A stretch of DNA of 64,000 nt from Thermogemmata fonticola (lineage in GTDB: Bacteria > Planctomycetota > Planctomycetia > Gemmatales > Gemmataceae). Shown one piece after another: positions 58,436 through 64,000 of the stretch. Within the stretch, counting starts at the first letter, position 1. Each line of letters starts with the position of its first letter. Under the pieces are notes generated by a model that saw only the letters and a program-made list of their open reading frames with translations, was not told the DNA's origin and made no database searches. The stretch is from the NCBI RefSeq assembly GCF_013694095.1, contig NZ_JACEFB010000019.1:1-64000 (forward strand), read 5' to 3'. The translations under genes and the position numbers were made by a program.

Positions 58436-59074
58436 GCCCTATGCCCCTCCCTTGTGCCCCAGTCTTTGGAATGCCCGGATGGCGAGCCTTTCCTGAGGCG
58501 AATGTCCGCCTCTTGAATCCGGCATCATGAGAATTCGTCCCTCTCCTCTCCCCTCAGGACGGGTAAGGGATTGGATTAGCGACAAGACAGGAAAGTTCCC
58601 CTATTGCCCATTGTGGTATGCAGTGTTCGACGGGTCAACCAGTCCTGCCGAAGCTCACTCCTTCTGCGAGTTGGTGTCCCATACTTGGAGAGAAGTTTTG
58701 CGTGTTGGCGTCCTGTACCCGTATTGGCGTCACGTGGAAGGCAGAAGCCGGACTGACCACAAACAAGCCGGCATGGTTCGTGGTCTGCGCGCGGAAACCC
58801 CAGTGCCATCGGCAACTCCCAACTTCCAAGGGGCGGGCAGATTCCTCTGGCGGGATCGGCAGGTTTCGACTATGAAGGTGCGGAGTTTGAGGATAAGCGA
58901 TCTCAGACCTTAGGGAGCAGCCGCAGGCAGGTTGTGGCAGTATGCGACACTAGCCGTCCGGCGGTTCGCCCAATTGCGGCAGCGACCTGGAAGTCAGAAA
59001 GTCTCCGACCGGCGGCCTTACTAGCGGCCTCGGCCAAGCTAGCGGCATTTCCACGTGGGAAAGGGAGAGGACGA
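58436..59074. other. Divergent intergenic region
   Basis: The 639-base spacer separates the large TPR gene (minus) from the YCF48-like gene (plus). The frame of the latter stays open upstream to about 58934, but no ribosome site supports that earlier ATG. No RNA gene, repeat or other ORF is convincing. Confidence 0.45.
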
Positions 59075-62000
59075 ATGGAACGAATGGAATCGCGCTATGC
59101 ACGATTGGAGAGCGAGCGCAGCGGACGGAATCGCGGCGTGAGGGAGGCGGGAGCGGCAGTTTGGCAGAGAGGTTGGAAGCGGTGGGTGATTCTAGCGGCG
59201 ATTGTTGTCTGGGGAGTGTGTGGCGAGGGGAGCGGTCGAACTCCGGTGCCGGGAGCACCGCCGCCTTACGAAGATGCCACCCTTTACGGCATCTATTTCG
59301 TGGATGCCGACGAGGGCTGGGCAGTGGGTGATGAAGGGGTGATCTGGCATTCGGTGGATGGCGGGAAGAGCTGGGAGCGGCAGAAGTCGGGAACGCGGGC
59401 GAGCTTGCGGGGTGTGCACTTTTTGACGCCGTACACCGGTTGGGCGGTGGGTCGGCGCGAGGAACTGGGTGTCGGTGCGGTGGGAGTCATCTTGCAGACC
59501 CGCGATGGGGGATGGCACTGGGAGGAGCTAGGTTGGCATCAGTTACCACCGTTGCATGGGGTGCGCTTCTTCGATGAGCGGCATGGCGTGGTCTGGGGAG
59601 ATGGCAGTGCGGCATTTCCCAGCGGGGTCTTCATCACTCACGATGGCGGCAAAAGCTGGCAAGGTGTGCCGGAAACCGCCTGGCCGCTGTGTCGGGGAGC
59701 AGCCTTTCGACCTGACGGGACGCAGGGGTTGATCGTCGGCTTGGGCGGGCGATGGGGATGCCTGGAACCGAAGAGCGGGCGAGTCCGGATCGGGGAACGG
59801 GACACTGGGCCTTCCCGGAACTGGTATGCCGCCGCGGATGACGGTCAGATGCCGGGGGCGGGAACTTGGTACATGGTGGGGGATGGCGGAGCCATCCGCC
59901 GGAGCCAGGACGGCGGGCAGAGCTGGCACAGTTTGGTACCGGACCTGCCGAAAGAGGCTTTAGCCGTCTGTGACTTCCGGGCCTGTGCTGCTTTTGGCAA
60001 GCATGTCTGGGTAGCGGGGCGTGCGGGCCGAGTGGTGCTCTACAGCCCCGATCGCGGCCAGAGTTGGCAGCGGCAGCGGCTGGAAGTGCCCCTGAGTATC
60101 CACGGGATGTATTTCCTCACGGATCAGATCGGTTGGCTGGTGGGGGAAATGGGAGTCATTCATGGGACGACTGACGGCGGGAAAACCTGGAAGGTCCAGC
60201 GTGTGGGGGGAACACGGGCGGCAGCTCTGAGTGTGCACGCTCGCGCCCAGCAGTTGCCCCTGGAACATGTAGCCGTGTGGGGAGGCGGACAGGGCTATCG
60301 CTGTGCAGCGGTGGTGGTGACCCGGGCCACGGAATCTTCCGCTGGAATCTGGCAGCAGGCGGAGGAGGAACGCTGGCGGCAAGCCTGGCGGGAGAGCGGC
60401 GGCGTGGCTTTGAACCGGGAGTGGGCCTTCCCCTTGCCTCTGCACGCCCAGGACCTGACCCCGCGGCAACTCCTCGCCTTCTGGGACCGCTATCAGGGAG
60501 CACCAGCTCAGGACGCGCTATTGCGGCGGCTGGTCTTCGCCCTTCGCCAGTGGCAGCCAGAAGTAGTTCTAGCCGATGCCGTCGACCCCCGTGGTCCCGC
60601 CGGAGAGCGTTTGATCCTCCAGGCAATTCACGAGGCCTTTCGCCGAGCAGCCGATCCGGAGTCTTTCCCAGAACAGTGGCGGATTTTGGGTGTGGAACCC
60701 TGGGCAGCCCGGCGACTCTACGCCCTGACCCTTGGGGTGGATGACAGCGTGGATTCATCGGCTTCTGGGTCGGGCAGCGTTACCAGCCCTCTGGAAGCGA
60801 CAGCAGTGCATCCCCACGTAGGCGAGGCCCCGGCGGATATGATCGCAGAGGCCGCTCGGCACATCGGCCGCTTCCCTTGGCCGCGGCGAGGATGGACGCT
60901 GGTCGCCCACCGGCGCTCCGACGTGAGGTCAGGAGCATCGGCAGGGGGAGGGGCAGATCGCCTAACTCCGGCAGTTTCCCCCTCGGATGTCTGGCAGGGA
61001 ATCGAATTGACCGCGGGAGGAGCAGCCCGGCGCCCTCCAGCGGCTTGGCGGGCTTCGGGAGAAATCACCGAGGAACAGCAGCGTCTGGTCCTGGTGCGCC
61101 GCCGGTTGGAACGATTGTGCTCTCCCGCGGGTCCGGCTGGGGTGGACGAGACATCCTGGTTGGCCGCATGCCAGCGCGAACTGCGGCAGTTGCCGGAGAT
61201 GGAGGCGCCGCGCTGGGCCGTGCTGCTGGCGGAGCGCTGTCATCACGCCGGTGAGTGGCGCAAAGCCCAGGCTTTGTACCAATGGGTGGGGGAGCAATGG
61301 CCGGCTCATCCTGCAGCTCTGGCGGCCGCCCGCTGGTTATTGCGCTACGAAGTCGGCATAGAAACCCAGCAGCAACTCTGGCCGAATTCCGGCGTCGTAC
61401 CCGCGGCAGCCTCTCGTGAAATCCCAGGTATGACTTGGCTGCATCCCGCTTCAAACGACCGTCGTGGAGTGGATTTCACTGCGATCGATTGGGACGAGCG
61501 CTCGCCGTTGTTTCGCCTCCATCGCCATCTGGAGCAGGAGTTGCGCTGGACAGCTTGGGGACCGCTCCAAGCAGAGGACCCCGCTATCCGCCTCAGTCTT
61601 TTGGCAGCTCGAAGACATCTGGGCCGGACGGACCAAGCGGTTCAACTGGCACGCCGCTGGTTGCCTTCGATCCCGGAAAAAGCCTCGGCCTGGGCGGCAA
61701 TCGACCCGGCCCATGCTGCCCTAGCAGCGGAGGTCTGGCTGGTTGAACCCCGGCGGTTCCTCACACCGCCTCTGCCTATCGTGACTGCCCGGCGGACCGA
61801 GACTCGCCCCTTGCTGGACGGCCAACTGGAAGACACTTGCTGGCAGCATGCCGAAGCGATACCGCTTCGTTCGTATGAAGCGGACCAAAATATTTCCGAA
61901 CGCAACTGGCAGACGGTTGCTCGTTTTTCTTGGGATGATCAGTACCTTTACCTGGCCGTGCGCTGTGCCCATCCAGTTGGCCACCGGCAGGAGCCGATCC

Positions 62001-62371
62001 GGCCTCGCCCGCGGGATGCAGATGTGCGGGGACGCGATCGGGTCGAAATCCTCCTGGACCTGGACCGGGATGGCCAGACGGCTTACCGCTTCCGCATCGA
62101 TCAACGCGGTGCCCCCGCCGAAGATTGCTCGGGTGATCCCCGGTGGAACCCCAAATACTATTTGGCCAGTCAAGCTCAGGAACACGCTTGGGTAGTTGAA
62201 TGGGCTATTCCCTGGAAGGAACTCGGTCTGGAACGCCCGCCGCGGGGAGGAGTGTGGGCCTTACAAGTGCTCCGAGTCATTCCTGGACAGACGGTGTTGC
62301 AACTGGCCCCAGCTCCCGGAGCGGAGATTTCCCGGACCCCTGCCGCGCTGCTTCGCTTCCTCACGGATTAG
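59075..62371 (+). CDS. Exported YCF48-like beta-propeller protein with C-terminal CBM9-like domain
   Basis: Start at 59075 (GAGAGG four bases upstream); 1098 residues. After a basic leader, a hydrophobic segment (WVILAAIVVWGVCG) anchors or exports it. Residues about 60-400 contain at least five photosystem-II-stability-factor (YCF48) type repeats, recognisable by GWAVGDEGVIWHSVDGGKSW, GWAVGRREE..., THDGGKSWQGV, SQDGGQSWHSL and VIHGTTDGGKTW. A long helical, Trp/Arg-rich middle follows. From about 960 the sequence PLLDGQLEDTCWQHAEAIPL ... DQYLYLAVRCAHP ... RVEILLDLDRDGQTAYRFRID is a CBM9/DOMON-like sandwich. The function is unknown, probably surface binding. Its stop codon coincides with the first base of an Rhs-like fragment. 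Confidence 0.85.
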   Translation: MERMESRYARLESERSGRNRGVREAGAAVWQRGWKRWVILAAIVVWGVCGEGSGRTPVPGAPPPYEDATLYGIYFVDADEGWAVGDEGVIWHSVDGGKSWERQKSGTRASLRGVHFLTPYTGWAVGRREELGVGAVGVILQTRDGGWHWEELGWHQLPPLHGVRFFDERHGVVWGDGSAAFPSGVFITHDGGKSWQGVPETAWPLCRGAAFRPDGTQGLIVGLGGRWGCLEPKSGRVRIGERDTGPSRNWYAAADDGQMPGAGTWYMVGDGGAIRRSQDGGQSWHSLVPDLPKEALAVCDFRACAAFGKHVWVAGRAGRVVLYSPDRGQSWQRQRLEVPLSIHGMYFLTDQIGWLVGEMGVIHGTTDGGKTWKVQRVGGTRAAALSVHARAQQLPLEHVAVWGGGQGYRCAAVVVTRATESSAGIWQQAEEERWRQAWRESGGVALNREWAFPLPLHAQDLTPRQLLAFWDRYQGAPAQDALLRRLVFALRQWQPEVVLADAVDPRGPAGERLILQAIHEAFRRAADPESFPEQWRILGVEPWAARRLYALTLGVDDSVDSSASGSGSVTSPLEATAVHPHVGEAPADMIAEAARHIGRFPWPRRGWTLVAHRRSDVRSGASAGGGADRLTPAVSPSDVWQGIELTAGGAARRPPAAWRASGEITEEQQRLVLVRRRLERLCSPAGPAGVDETSWLAACQRELRQLPEMEAPRWAVLLAERCHHAGEWRKAQALYQWVGEQWPAHPAALAAARWLLRYEVGIETQQQLWPNSGVVPAAASREIPGMTWLHPASNDRRGVDFTAIDWDERSPLFRLHRHLEQELRWTAWGPLQAEDPAIRLSLLAARRHLGRTDQAVQLARRWLPSIPEKASAWAAIDPAHAALAAEVWLVEPRRFLTPPLPIVTARRTETRPLLDGQLEDTCWQHAEAIPLRSYEADQNISERNWQTVARFSWDDQYLYLAVRCAHPVGHRQEPIRPRPRDADVRGRDRVEILLDLDRDGQTAYRFRIDQRGAPAEDCSGDPRWNPKYYLASQAQEHAWVVEWAIPWKELGLERPPRGGVWALQVLRVIPGQTVLQLAPAPGAEISRTPAALLRFLTD

Positions 62372-63192
62372 GCAGCGCCTACGATTGGCGCTATCTGCAT
62401 CAGGGTGGACGGTACGATGTCACCAGCGGTCTGTATCACTTCCGTTTCCGCGACTATTCCCCCACCCTCGGCCGCTGGACGAGCCTCGATCCCCTCTCCT
62501 ACGCCGCGGGAGATGTGAACCTCTACCGGGCACTAGGAAATAACTCTCTGATTCGGCTCGATCCCTACAGCTTAGCTTGGTCATGGGGTGGGGCTGTTGG
62601 TGGCATGCTTTCAGGTGGTAATGTTGGAGCAGGAGTTGGTGCAACCGTGGGGGCGCCATTTTTTGGAATTAGTGCGTTACCCGGTGCGATTGCCGGTGCT
62701 GTGGTTGGTGGAATTGGAGGCTTTATTGCCGGTGGTGCATTATCTGAACCAGCTTATACCGCCATGAGCGGCAACCCTGACCCGCAACTGTCGTCGTGGG
62801 AAGAAGCATGTATGGGCATAATCATAGGAGGACCTGTTGGAGTGGTTGCAGGAATTTTAGGACCAGCCAGTTGGTCGCTTTATACCGGTGCATTTTGGGC
62901 TTCGCCTTTTGCCTACACCCTAGGGATTGCAACTCCAGGAGCAACGCTACCCGTTTCTCATTGGGGTAGCAATCAGATCCAATCGGGATCGTGGGTTATG
63001 GTGGGGCGACCCGATTTTGTAAGCTGGTTTTTATCCGGTAAATGGCAGTGGTGGGGGAGTAATCGGTATGCTTCACTGTCTCAGGTAGTTACTATTGAGG
63101 TTCATCCTGGCAACGTTGTAATGCCTTGGACCGGTGGTGCTCCATGGTGGGAGTGGTGGAAGGCAATCTTGGGGCAGCGGATGATTAGGTAA
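62371..63192 (+). pseudogene. Rhs core fragment with displaced C-terminal tip
   Basis: The frame carries the C-terminal part of an Rhs core (RYDVTSGLYHFRFRDYSPTLGRWTSLDPLSYAAGDVNLYRALGNN) and then a unique tip. No start codon for the Rhs part is available after the preceding gene's stop; the frame merely runs on upstream inside that gene. The tip has a Gly/Ala-rich hydrophobic stretch (about 62580-62760, like a membrane-crossing element of toxin tips) and a C-terminal 100-residue domain rich in Trp (GKWQWWGSNRY, WWEWWKAILG) that I do not recognise. Base composition turns AT-richer from 62570. It resembles an orphan Rhs-CT module of the type that replaces toxin tips by recombination. Confidence 0.72.
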
Positions 63193-63262
63193 GCTAAACT
63201 AACAGTTTGTAATGTATCGACATCTAATAAATAGTTTTGTAACATTAAGTAATCTGTAAAGT

Positions 63263-63580
63263 ATGAATGCACAGCAGACAGTAGAATCGACGGCCTATTG
63301 GGTGCAGGTGACAGGATCACTATGTTTTCTGTTTCCCGGTATTTTCTTAGTAGCATGCAATTGGTTACTAGTTATCATCTATTGGGTGAAAGGACGCTGC
63401 AGTTCACTTGCACCTCCCATCGGCGGCTTTTGCATGTTTATCGGGTTGTTGTGCTTCCCTTCTACTTTTCTAAAATCTGTTAGCTGGATAGGACTACTTG
63501 TTGATCCAGGAACAACTGTTCTGGTAATCGCAGTACTTAAGTATTGGCGAGGGCGAGCAGACAAGGATCGAGCGCATTAA
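63263..63580 (+). CDS. Small membrane protein, candidate immunity protein of the Rhs tip
   Basis: The 105-residue protein has three hydrophobic segments (SLCFLFPGIFLVACNWLLVIIYW, GGFCMFIGLLCFPSTFL, IGLLVDPGTTVLVIAVLKYW) and a basic tail. It follows the Rhs tip by 70 bases on the same strand in an AT-rich, low-GC patch, the usual position of an immunity gene for an Rhs toxin tip. I do not recognise the family. The TAAAGT before ATG is not a good ribosome site, so the start is tentative. Confidence 0.62.
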   Translation: MNAQQTVESTAYWVQVTGSLCFLFPGIFLVACNWLLVIIYWVKGRCSSLAPPIGGFCMFIGLLCFPSTFLKSVSWIGLLVDPGTTVLVIAVLKYWRGRADKDRAH

Positions 63581-63600
63581 ACGTCGATGGTCGCTCATAG

Positions 63601-64000
63601 GTACCCTTGGACGCCAATTTCACCGTGACGGCGGTGGTGGATGACAGTGGGGAGGTGGTCGAGCGTTACATCTACGATCCTTTCGGCCAGGCGACGGTGC
63701 TGGATGGGGAATGGAATGTTCGGTCCGGTGGCAGAGCCTACGATTGGCACTATCGGCATGAGGGTGGACGGTACGATGTCACCAGTGGTCTGTACCACTT
63801 CCGCCACCGCGACTATTCCCCCACCCTCGGCCGCTGGACGAGCCTCGATCCCCTCTCCTACGCCGCCGGAGATGTCAACCTCTACCGCTCCCTCGGCAAT
63901 GACCCGATCAACTCCCTCGATCCAAGCGGCCTGGAGGAGGTAGTGCCGTACTATGACGTCACGCTTGCCTTGGTACCGGCAGCATCAAACCCAGGTGGGC
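63601..64000 (+). pseudogene. Second Rhs core fragment, runs off the window
   Basis: After a stop at 63598-63600 the frame opens as V-P-L-D-A-N-F-T and includes VVDDSGEVVERYIYDPFGQATV, then GRYDVTSGLYHFRHRDYSPTLGRWTSLDPLSYAAGDVNLYRSLGND and LDPSGLEEVV, the conserved end of an Rhs core. No start codon with a ribosome site is present, so it looks like another displaced tip rather than a complete gene. Its own tip begins near 63930 and continues beyond the window. Confidence 0.75.

Follow-up and report, generated by a model that had tools for sequence, protein, structure and literature searches.

The right-hand end of a 64,000-base window of Thermogemmata fonticola DNA (bases 1–64,000 of the 71,425-base contig NZ_JACEFB010000019.1, here C19, of a 4.8-Mb genome in 61 contigs) carries two Rhs core-end fragments flanking a protein tip with a tryptophan-rich end and a gene for a small membrane protein. 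The tip and its membrane partner are the subject of this analysis. The features of the region are as follows (aa, amino acids).

58934–62371, plus strand: unrelated upstream gene, 1145 aa, with YCF48-like/sortilin repeats and a C-terminal CBM9-like domain (Pfam PF14870, 9.9e-19; PF06452, 1.2e-11)
62371–62564, plus strand: Rhs core end, copy 1, 5′-truncated, lacking a start codon before GTG 62515 (TIGR03696)
62578–62934, plus strand: tip, part 1, a glycine-zipper-like hydrophobic region with two helical hairpins predicted at low confidence
62935–63192 including the stop, plus strand: tip, part 2, an 85-aa Trp-rich C-terminal domain and candidate toxin domain (working name, WVM-GQR domain)
63217–63245, plus strand: weak sigma-70-like promoter match preceding the small gene, 9/12 positions, not above chance (5 matches observed in the region, 3.8 ± 2.4 expected)
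63263–63580, plus strand: candidate immunity gene for a 105-aa inner-membrane protein, three predicted spans, N-out/C-in by charge
63607–63929, plus strand: Rhs core end of the next cassette, containing repeat copy 2 (63730–63923), with a tip that starts near 63930 and runs past the edge of the window

The core-end repeat spans 194 nucleotides (nt) in each copy, at 87% identity and with a spacing of exactly 1359 nt start to start, a likeness far beyond chance. Both copies matched TIGR03696 (Rhs_assc_core) above the cut-off (4.9e-13 and 3.2e-19), in agreement with a first-pass annotation that had placed two Rhs core ends 1359 bases apart. Core homology starts at the stop codon of the upstream gene. 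The earliest in-frame start codon past that stop, GTG 62515, falls inside the core end, and an ATG at 62200 lies in the overlapping frame of the upstream gene; the tip, whose reading frame stops at 63190–63192, is thus a fragment without a proper start. The cassette had been described as AT-rich, and the G+C content indeed drops to 0.446 at 63000–63499, compared with 0.62–0.69 across most of the upstream gene. The description of a unique Trp-rich tip needs amending: 11 Trp do occur in the last 85 residues, but the tip consists of two parts and only the C-terminal one is Trp-rich. The three-helix membrane protein was correctly called, its 105 residues containing three hydrophobic segments. The order of core end, tip, small gene and core end, with recurrence of the pair as a unit elsewhere, supports the displaced arrangement of an Rhs C-terminal tip and immunity gene that had been proposed.

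The array continues past the right edge of the window. The core end at 63730 leads into a second tip, the later part of which lies in another frame, and then into an intact 182-codon gene. Within this next cassette (63601 to C19:64805; L026:1601–2805) the core frame ends at contig position 64254 and the likely tip goes on in another frame, a layout that suggests a broken toxin with its immunity gene kept. Behind a third core end, at C19:65842, come another tip, further small frames and a gene for a DUF1559 protein, and the far end of the array is formed by a core scrap followed by an NAD-kinase-like gene (named by eye from its translation). Across the whole genome there were 20 TIGR03696 matches, 18 of them above the cut-off, on C1, C2, C10, C12, C16, C17 and C19, with the core end common to differing tips. 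The sole full-length rhs gene among the stretches fetched lies at C1:45476–52696 (2406 codons) and is followed by further same-strand cassettes; FG-GAP repeats near its N-terminus were the only match in the 700 N-terminal residues scanned. Sequence beyond the edge, suggested as the place to look for further cassettes and the parental rhs gene, thus held another core copy at C19:65842, whereas the full-length gene was found only on another contig. The window locus is thus, on sequence grounds, one of several dispersed orphan arrays.

Two contigs each encode, downstream of an Rhs tip and at or close to the immunity position, one of a pair of related DUF1559-like proteins (L026:4837–5613, C19:66837–67613; and L027:6337–7035 minus, C1:36337–37035). 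The C19 protein matched PF07596 (2.8e-15) and the C1 protein resembles it by eye. DUF1559 is very common in planctomycetes, so its presence beside Rhs tips is possibly due to chance.

The WVM-GQR domain was found in nine copies in eight genomes or records, comprising seven planctomycetes (the window, G014, G323, G320, G554, G509 and G883, the last with two copies, one partial) and one Oscillatoria plasmid. A first search of 41 genomes returned a relative at 59% identity in G014 (contig SYLG01000009.1, a metagenome-assembled genome of a Planctomycetia bacterium), which belongs to another genus of the same family and has the genes in the same order. Profile searches added G323 and G320 (phylum, 392 genomes), G554 and G509 (397-genome and 296-genome searches) and the two G883 copies (130 genomes); both phylum searches had the one draw size of 392 and listed identical genomes. 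Narrower samples gave matches in 2/102 genomes for the order, 1/75 for the class of G320 and 2/117 for the order of G554. Among 72,556 plasmid records there was one match, in Oscillatoria nigro-viridis PCC 7112, where the domain terminates a long Rhs protein; the plasmid searches yielded no other relative, and none was found in viral contigs scanned with the tip or in phages by tblastn. Going by these sequence searches, the domain is rare in the sampled planctomycetes yet widely scattered.

All seven members tested by leave-one-out were found again when a profile was built from the remaining six (E = 5.4e-11 to 4.2e-29); the top "unrelated" match in this test came from the G883 tip, a member too, and the test therefore measures recovery and not the true background among tips. 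Eight positions are invariant in the eight aligned members (W10, W20, V21, G24, V56, P64, K76 and Q81, window-domain numbering), and the domain follows a pattern like [HR]WG..G...G[SD]WVM.G......[WY]..SGKW, with a C-terminal WP.G....KG.LGQR. The window tip retains all eight in a frame that is open throughout. Three genomes (G381, G046 and G008) were left out of the count because their matches are confined to the hydrophobic, glycine-rich stretch or to a broken remnant. The glycine-zipper pattern also occurs in unrelated proteins of two of them (G381, L039, 976–1686; G046, L041, 1438–3045 minus), probably as a convergent low-complexity similarity.

The carrier is not constant. The domain forms the end of a long, Ala-rich G509 protein that gave no Rhs match in NCBIfam (L051, 1498–3279 minus), and the domain is therefore not tied to Rhs: it and its neighbour move between carriers. 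An overlapping gene for a small membrane protein follows in G509, with a second similar N-terminal sequence just downstream; the locus is perhaps another polymorphic toxin array. G883 (L063, 749–2039) contains two tandem copies of the domain and its membrane partner, one tip being 5′-truncated, and lies near a PIN-like toxin–antitoxin pair (named by eye).

In 9/9 copies of the domain the next same-strand gene encodes a hydrophobic protein of 94–166 aa. At a Kyte–Doolittle threshold of 1.6, a measure of hydropathy and not a trained topology predictor, seven of these neighbours have three hydrophobic segments and two (G014 and G883b) have two. Six of the nine (window, G014, G320, G554 and both of G883) form one homologous family by leave-one-out profiles (E ≤ 1.1e-8), with conserved residues N33, S48, G54, P66, W75, D81 and G83. 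In 6/6 family members loop 1 and the C-tail are positive and the N-tail and loop 2 near neutral, a charge pattern that predicts an N-out/C-in topology and hence a P66–W75 loop outside. As a control, 16 other Rhs tips of the genome were examined for neighbours within 400 nt: none had a three-segment neighbour and two had a two-segment one (Fisher p = 2.7e-5 for neighbours with two or more segments, uncorrected for relatedness). A search of 7 genomes with a profile of the six partners gave no significant copy other than beside a tip, the extra matches (E = 0.05–0.08) lying inside large frames, so that the small protein was not seen without a tip there.

The domain had been called unfamiliar, and it remained so. 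Neither it nor its partner gave a Pfam or NCBIfam match over the curated cut-off or a clear PHROGs match, and no known non-toxin family in these libraries matched the tip; the PHROG matches of the tip (best 4.9e-4) fall in the core border and the glycine-rich part, outside the Trp-rich domain. A search of the Protein Data Bank (PDB) with the domain profile gave weak unrelated matches only (best E = 0.28). The G323 domain, modelled with five other members in the alignment, has the predicted order beta-beta-alpha-beta-alpha-beta (predicted local distance difference test, pLDDT, 83; predicted template modelling score, pTM, 0.71). The model of the whole window tip (pLDDT 51) was too poor for a fold search; its last 85 residues show the same order of elements after two helical hairpins. 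A structure-based search with the tip's end had been suggested, and with the modelled C-terminal domain Foldseek returned no convincing match (best E 4.6 in the PDB and 1.0 in BFVD), while VIA-align aligned 11 chains, none reaching Z 2. An assignment as the EF-Tu toxin TreTu or as an ADP-ribosyltransferase was dropped: there is no Pfam match, the R/H of the first strand varies to S, and the passages on TreTu hold no link.

The locus shares its architecture with known orphan modules. A core end precedes a variable tip, the tip has neither start nor export part, a small downstream gene is linked to it, and a full-length rhs with the same core exists in the genome (on C1, another contig). The cited passages on orphan rhs-CT/rhsI and cdiA-CT/cdiI modules of Escherichia coli EC93/EC869 and Salmonella Typhimurium LT2 (PMC3150448; PMC3967940) describe the same arrays, in which a toxin tip and then a small gene follow every core-end fragment, together with tips that lack a start and homology that breaks off sharply at the border of core and tip. 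Unlike those modules, the planctomycete array abuts an unrelated gene at its end, on a contig without a full-length carrier, and one of the genome's 20 core-end matches belongs to a full-length gene.

We consider it probable, from sequence comparison, that this is a displaced Rhs C-terminal toxin/immunity cassette working through steps 1–4 below. The tip would be silent in place, untranslated, until recombination through the shared core end puts it on a full-length Rhs carrier (1). The small gene, with its own start, would be expressible and so protect the cell (2). On delivery, the glycine-zipper part would insert into or cross the inner membrane of the target, and the ~85-residue Trp-rich domain would harm the cell there, by depolarisation or by blocking a membrane-bound target (3). 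The three-span protein would bind the toxin within the membrane, on the periplasmic side, to which the predicted topology assigns the protein's most conserved residues (P66, W75, D81 and G83) (4). The first two steps have counterparts in the passages cited: orphan modules carry toxins without start signals and expressible immunity genes (PMC3150448), and the orphan toxin becomes active once it recombines with the main rhs gene (PMC3967940).

We infer both the toxicity of the tip and the immunity function of its partner, as well as the site of action. The first-pass annotation had argued that a membrane-spanning immunity protein suggests a membrane-active toxin; this is plausible and matches the pattern of channel-forming effectors, for which the excerpted source gives polytopic membrane immunity in almost all cases (PMC12744356). 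Similarly, the immunities to CDI ionophores (CDI, contact-dependent growth inhibition) are described as small, very hydrophobic and polymorphic (PMC11630599), and membrane or lipoprotein immunities are given for those Lipocone toxins whose site of action is the membrane or the periplasm (PMC12419801). Taking the membrane partner as our guide, we therefore favour action at the inner membrane, and the candidate toxin domain most likely acts from the periplasmic side.

Among characterised systems, Tse5/Tsi5 of Pseudomonas aeruginosa also comprises an Rhs tip with the inner membrane as its presumed site of action, there as a pore former; unlike Tse5, the window tip ends in a beta/alpha Trp-rich domain and the scanned 700 N-terminal residues of the planctomycete carrier showed only FG-GAP repeats. 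No PDB sequence match or fold link to Tse5 emerged, the available structure leaving its toxin part unresolved according to the passage cited (PMC11630599). EC93-type CdiA-CT ionophores with their CdiI hairpins are described in that source as having a variable entry part, a C-terminal toxin part and a small, very hydrophobic immunity, and within a group the immunities share only about 30% identity. Their ionophore domain, however, is a five-helix bundle, in contrast to the beta-beta-alpha-beta-alpha-beta model obtained here, and their immunity is a two-helix hairpin of 72–100 residues with both termini cytoplasmic, whereas the partners here mostly have three predicted spans and are N-out/C-in in 6/6 homologous members. 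EsxX/ExiCD of Staphylococcus aureus (an LXG system) combines, in the excerpt available, polytopic membrane immunity with a toxic end that contains a glycine zipper (PMC12744356), but there the immunity comprises a six-span protein pair and a soluble pair, the carrier differs and none of the library families connects the two systems. Tox-WTIP (Zhang et al. 2012), described in PMC3482391 as a small, predicted non-enzymatic toxin domain that ends Rhs and other carriers, is defined by RxxR and Wx[ST]IP motifs in a pair of membrane helices; the window tip lacks the motif and its C-terminal domain is not two helices.

Several observations count against the proposed cassette. The neighbours of G323 (E = 0.089), G509 (no match) and Oscillatoria (E = 34) show no detectable relation to the remaining six and do not share their charge pattern. 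The Oscillatoria neighbour lies ~480 nt away, past the 400-nt limit of the control, so that under the control's own rule the count is 8/9. The G320 frame extends ~90 codons beyond the domain, and the full-length carrier sits on a different contig. Finally, the C-terminal domain is predicted to form a small beta/alpha fold and not membrane helices, so that it may be an enzyme or may block a soluble target.

This last point leads to a possible but somewhat doubtful alternative, in which the toxin is an enzyme or inhibitor with a cytoplasmic target and the membrane protein protects by stopping its entry at the inner membrane. The compact modelled fold, behind a variable hydrophobic part that may be an entry device, would suit such a toxin, and Zhang et al. 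2012 suggested, in the passage cited, that the two-helix immunities Imm-CdiI and Imm17 might prevent uptake (PMC3482391). Yet K76 and Q81 are the only invariant polar residues in the eight aligned members, no catalytic set is evident, and the first-strand H/R varies to S. The same source describes immunities to cytoplasmic toxins as mostly soluble, and the near-universal polytopic immunity of channel-forming effectors (PMC12744356) also argues for the membrane.

The killer is unlikely to be the glycine-zipper stretch at 62578–62934, acting as a pore former with the Trp-rich domain as an adaptor recognised by the immunity protein. A long glycine-zipper-like hairpin is present in both the window and G014, and EsxX is described as a glycine-zipper, membrane-depolarising toxin with polytopic immunity in the passage cited (PMC12744356). 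However, the C-terminal domain alone is common to all members, and in G323, G320, G554 and G509 the preceding stretch is unrelated or differently built while the membrane partner is still present. The hydrophobic stretch alone could also serve as an entry device.

It is equally improbable that the locus is a dead relic, even though its truncated core sits on the end of an unrelated gene, the tip has no start codon before GTG 62515, the core and tip of the next cassette are in different frames and the far end of the array is a mere core scrap. Against decay, the tip frame is fully open with its eight conserved positions intact and the partner gene is intact. The excerpt on E. coli EC93 likewise reports an orphan immunity gene that is expressed and a toxin that is not (PMC3150448).

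That the tip is not a toxin at all, the domain and membrane protein forming some other module, secreted or of the envelope, that hitch-hikes behind Rhs cores, is very unlikely: no member matches a characterised toxin family, but the hallmarks of polymorphic toxins given in the cited passage (PMC3482391) are present, namely a C-terminal position behind Rhs core ends, a change of carrier, a recombination boundary at the core end and a small downstream partner.

The displaced toxin/immunity cassette that we favour would represent a new family of a known kind of system, the tip domain and its partner both being missing from the libraries searched. A text search on spellings of the domain motif gave no paper, although a description under other names is possible, and literature searches for planctomycete Rhs or polymorphic toxins gave catalogues and surveys but no study of such a system by title and the start of the abstract. 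More tentatively, the WVM-GQR domain (~80 residues) may define a new class of antibacterial toxins that target the membrane not as helical pore formers but as compact beta/alpha domains rich in Trp. It would act at the periplasmic face of the inner membrane, be countered by a dedicated three-span immunity family and, over a range from Planctomycetota to Cyanobacteriota, be carried by Rhs proteins and by one or more polymorphic toxins of non-Rhs type. The constructs needed are small (85 and 105 residues) and offer an inexpensive way to test the working of membrane immunity. Few studies deal with planctomycete Rhs arsenals, and the present locus adds to them a candidate toxin domain and a membrane immunity family that are missing from the main family libraries, as a pair that moves between carriers and phyla.

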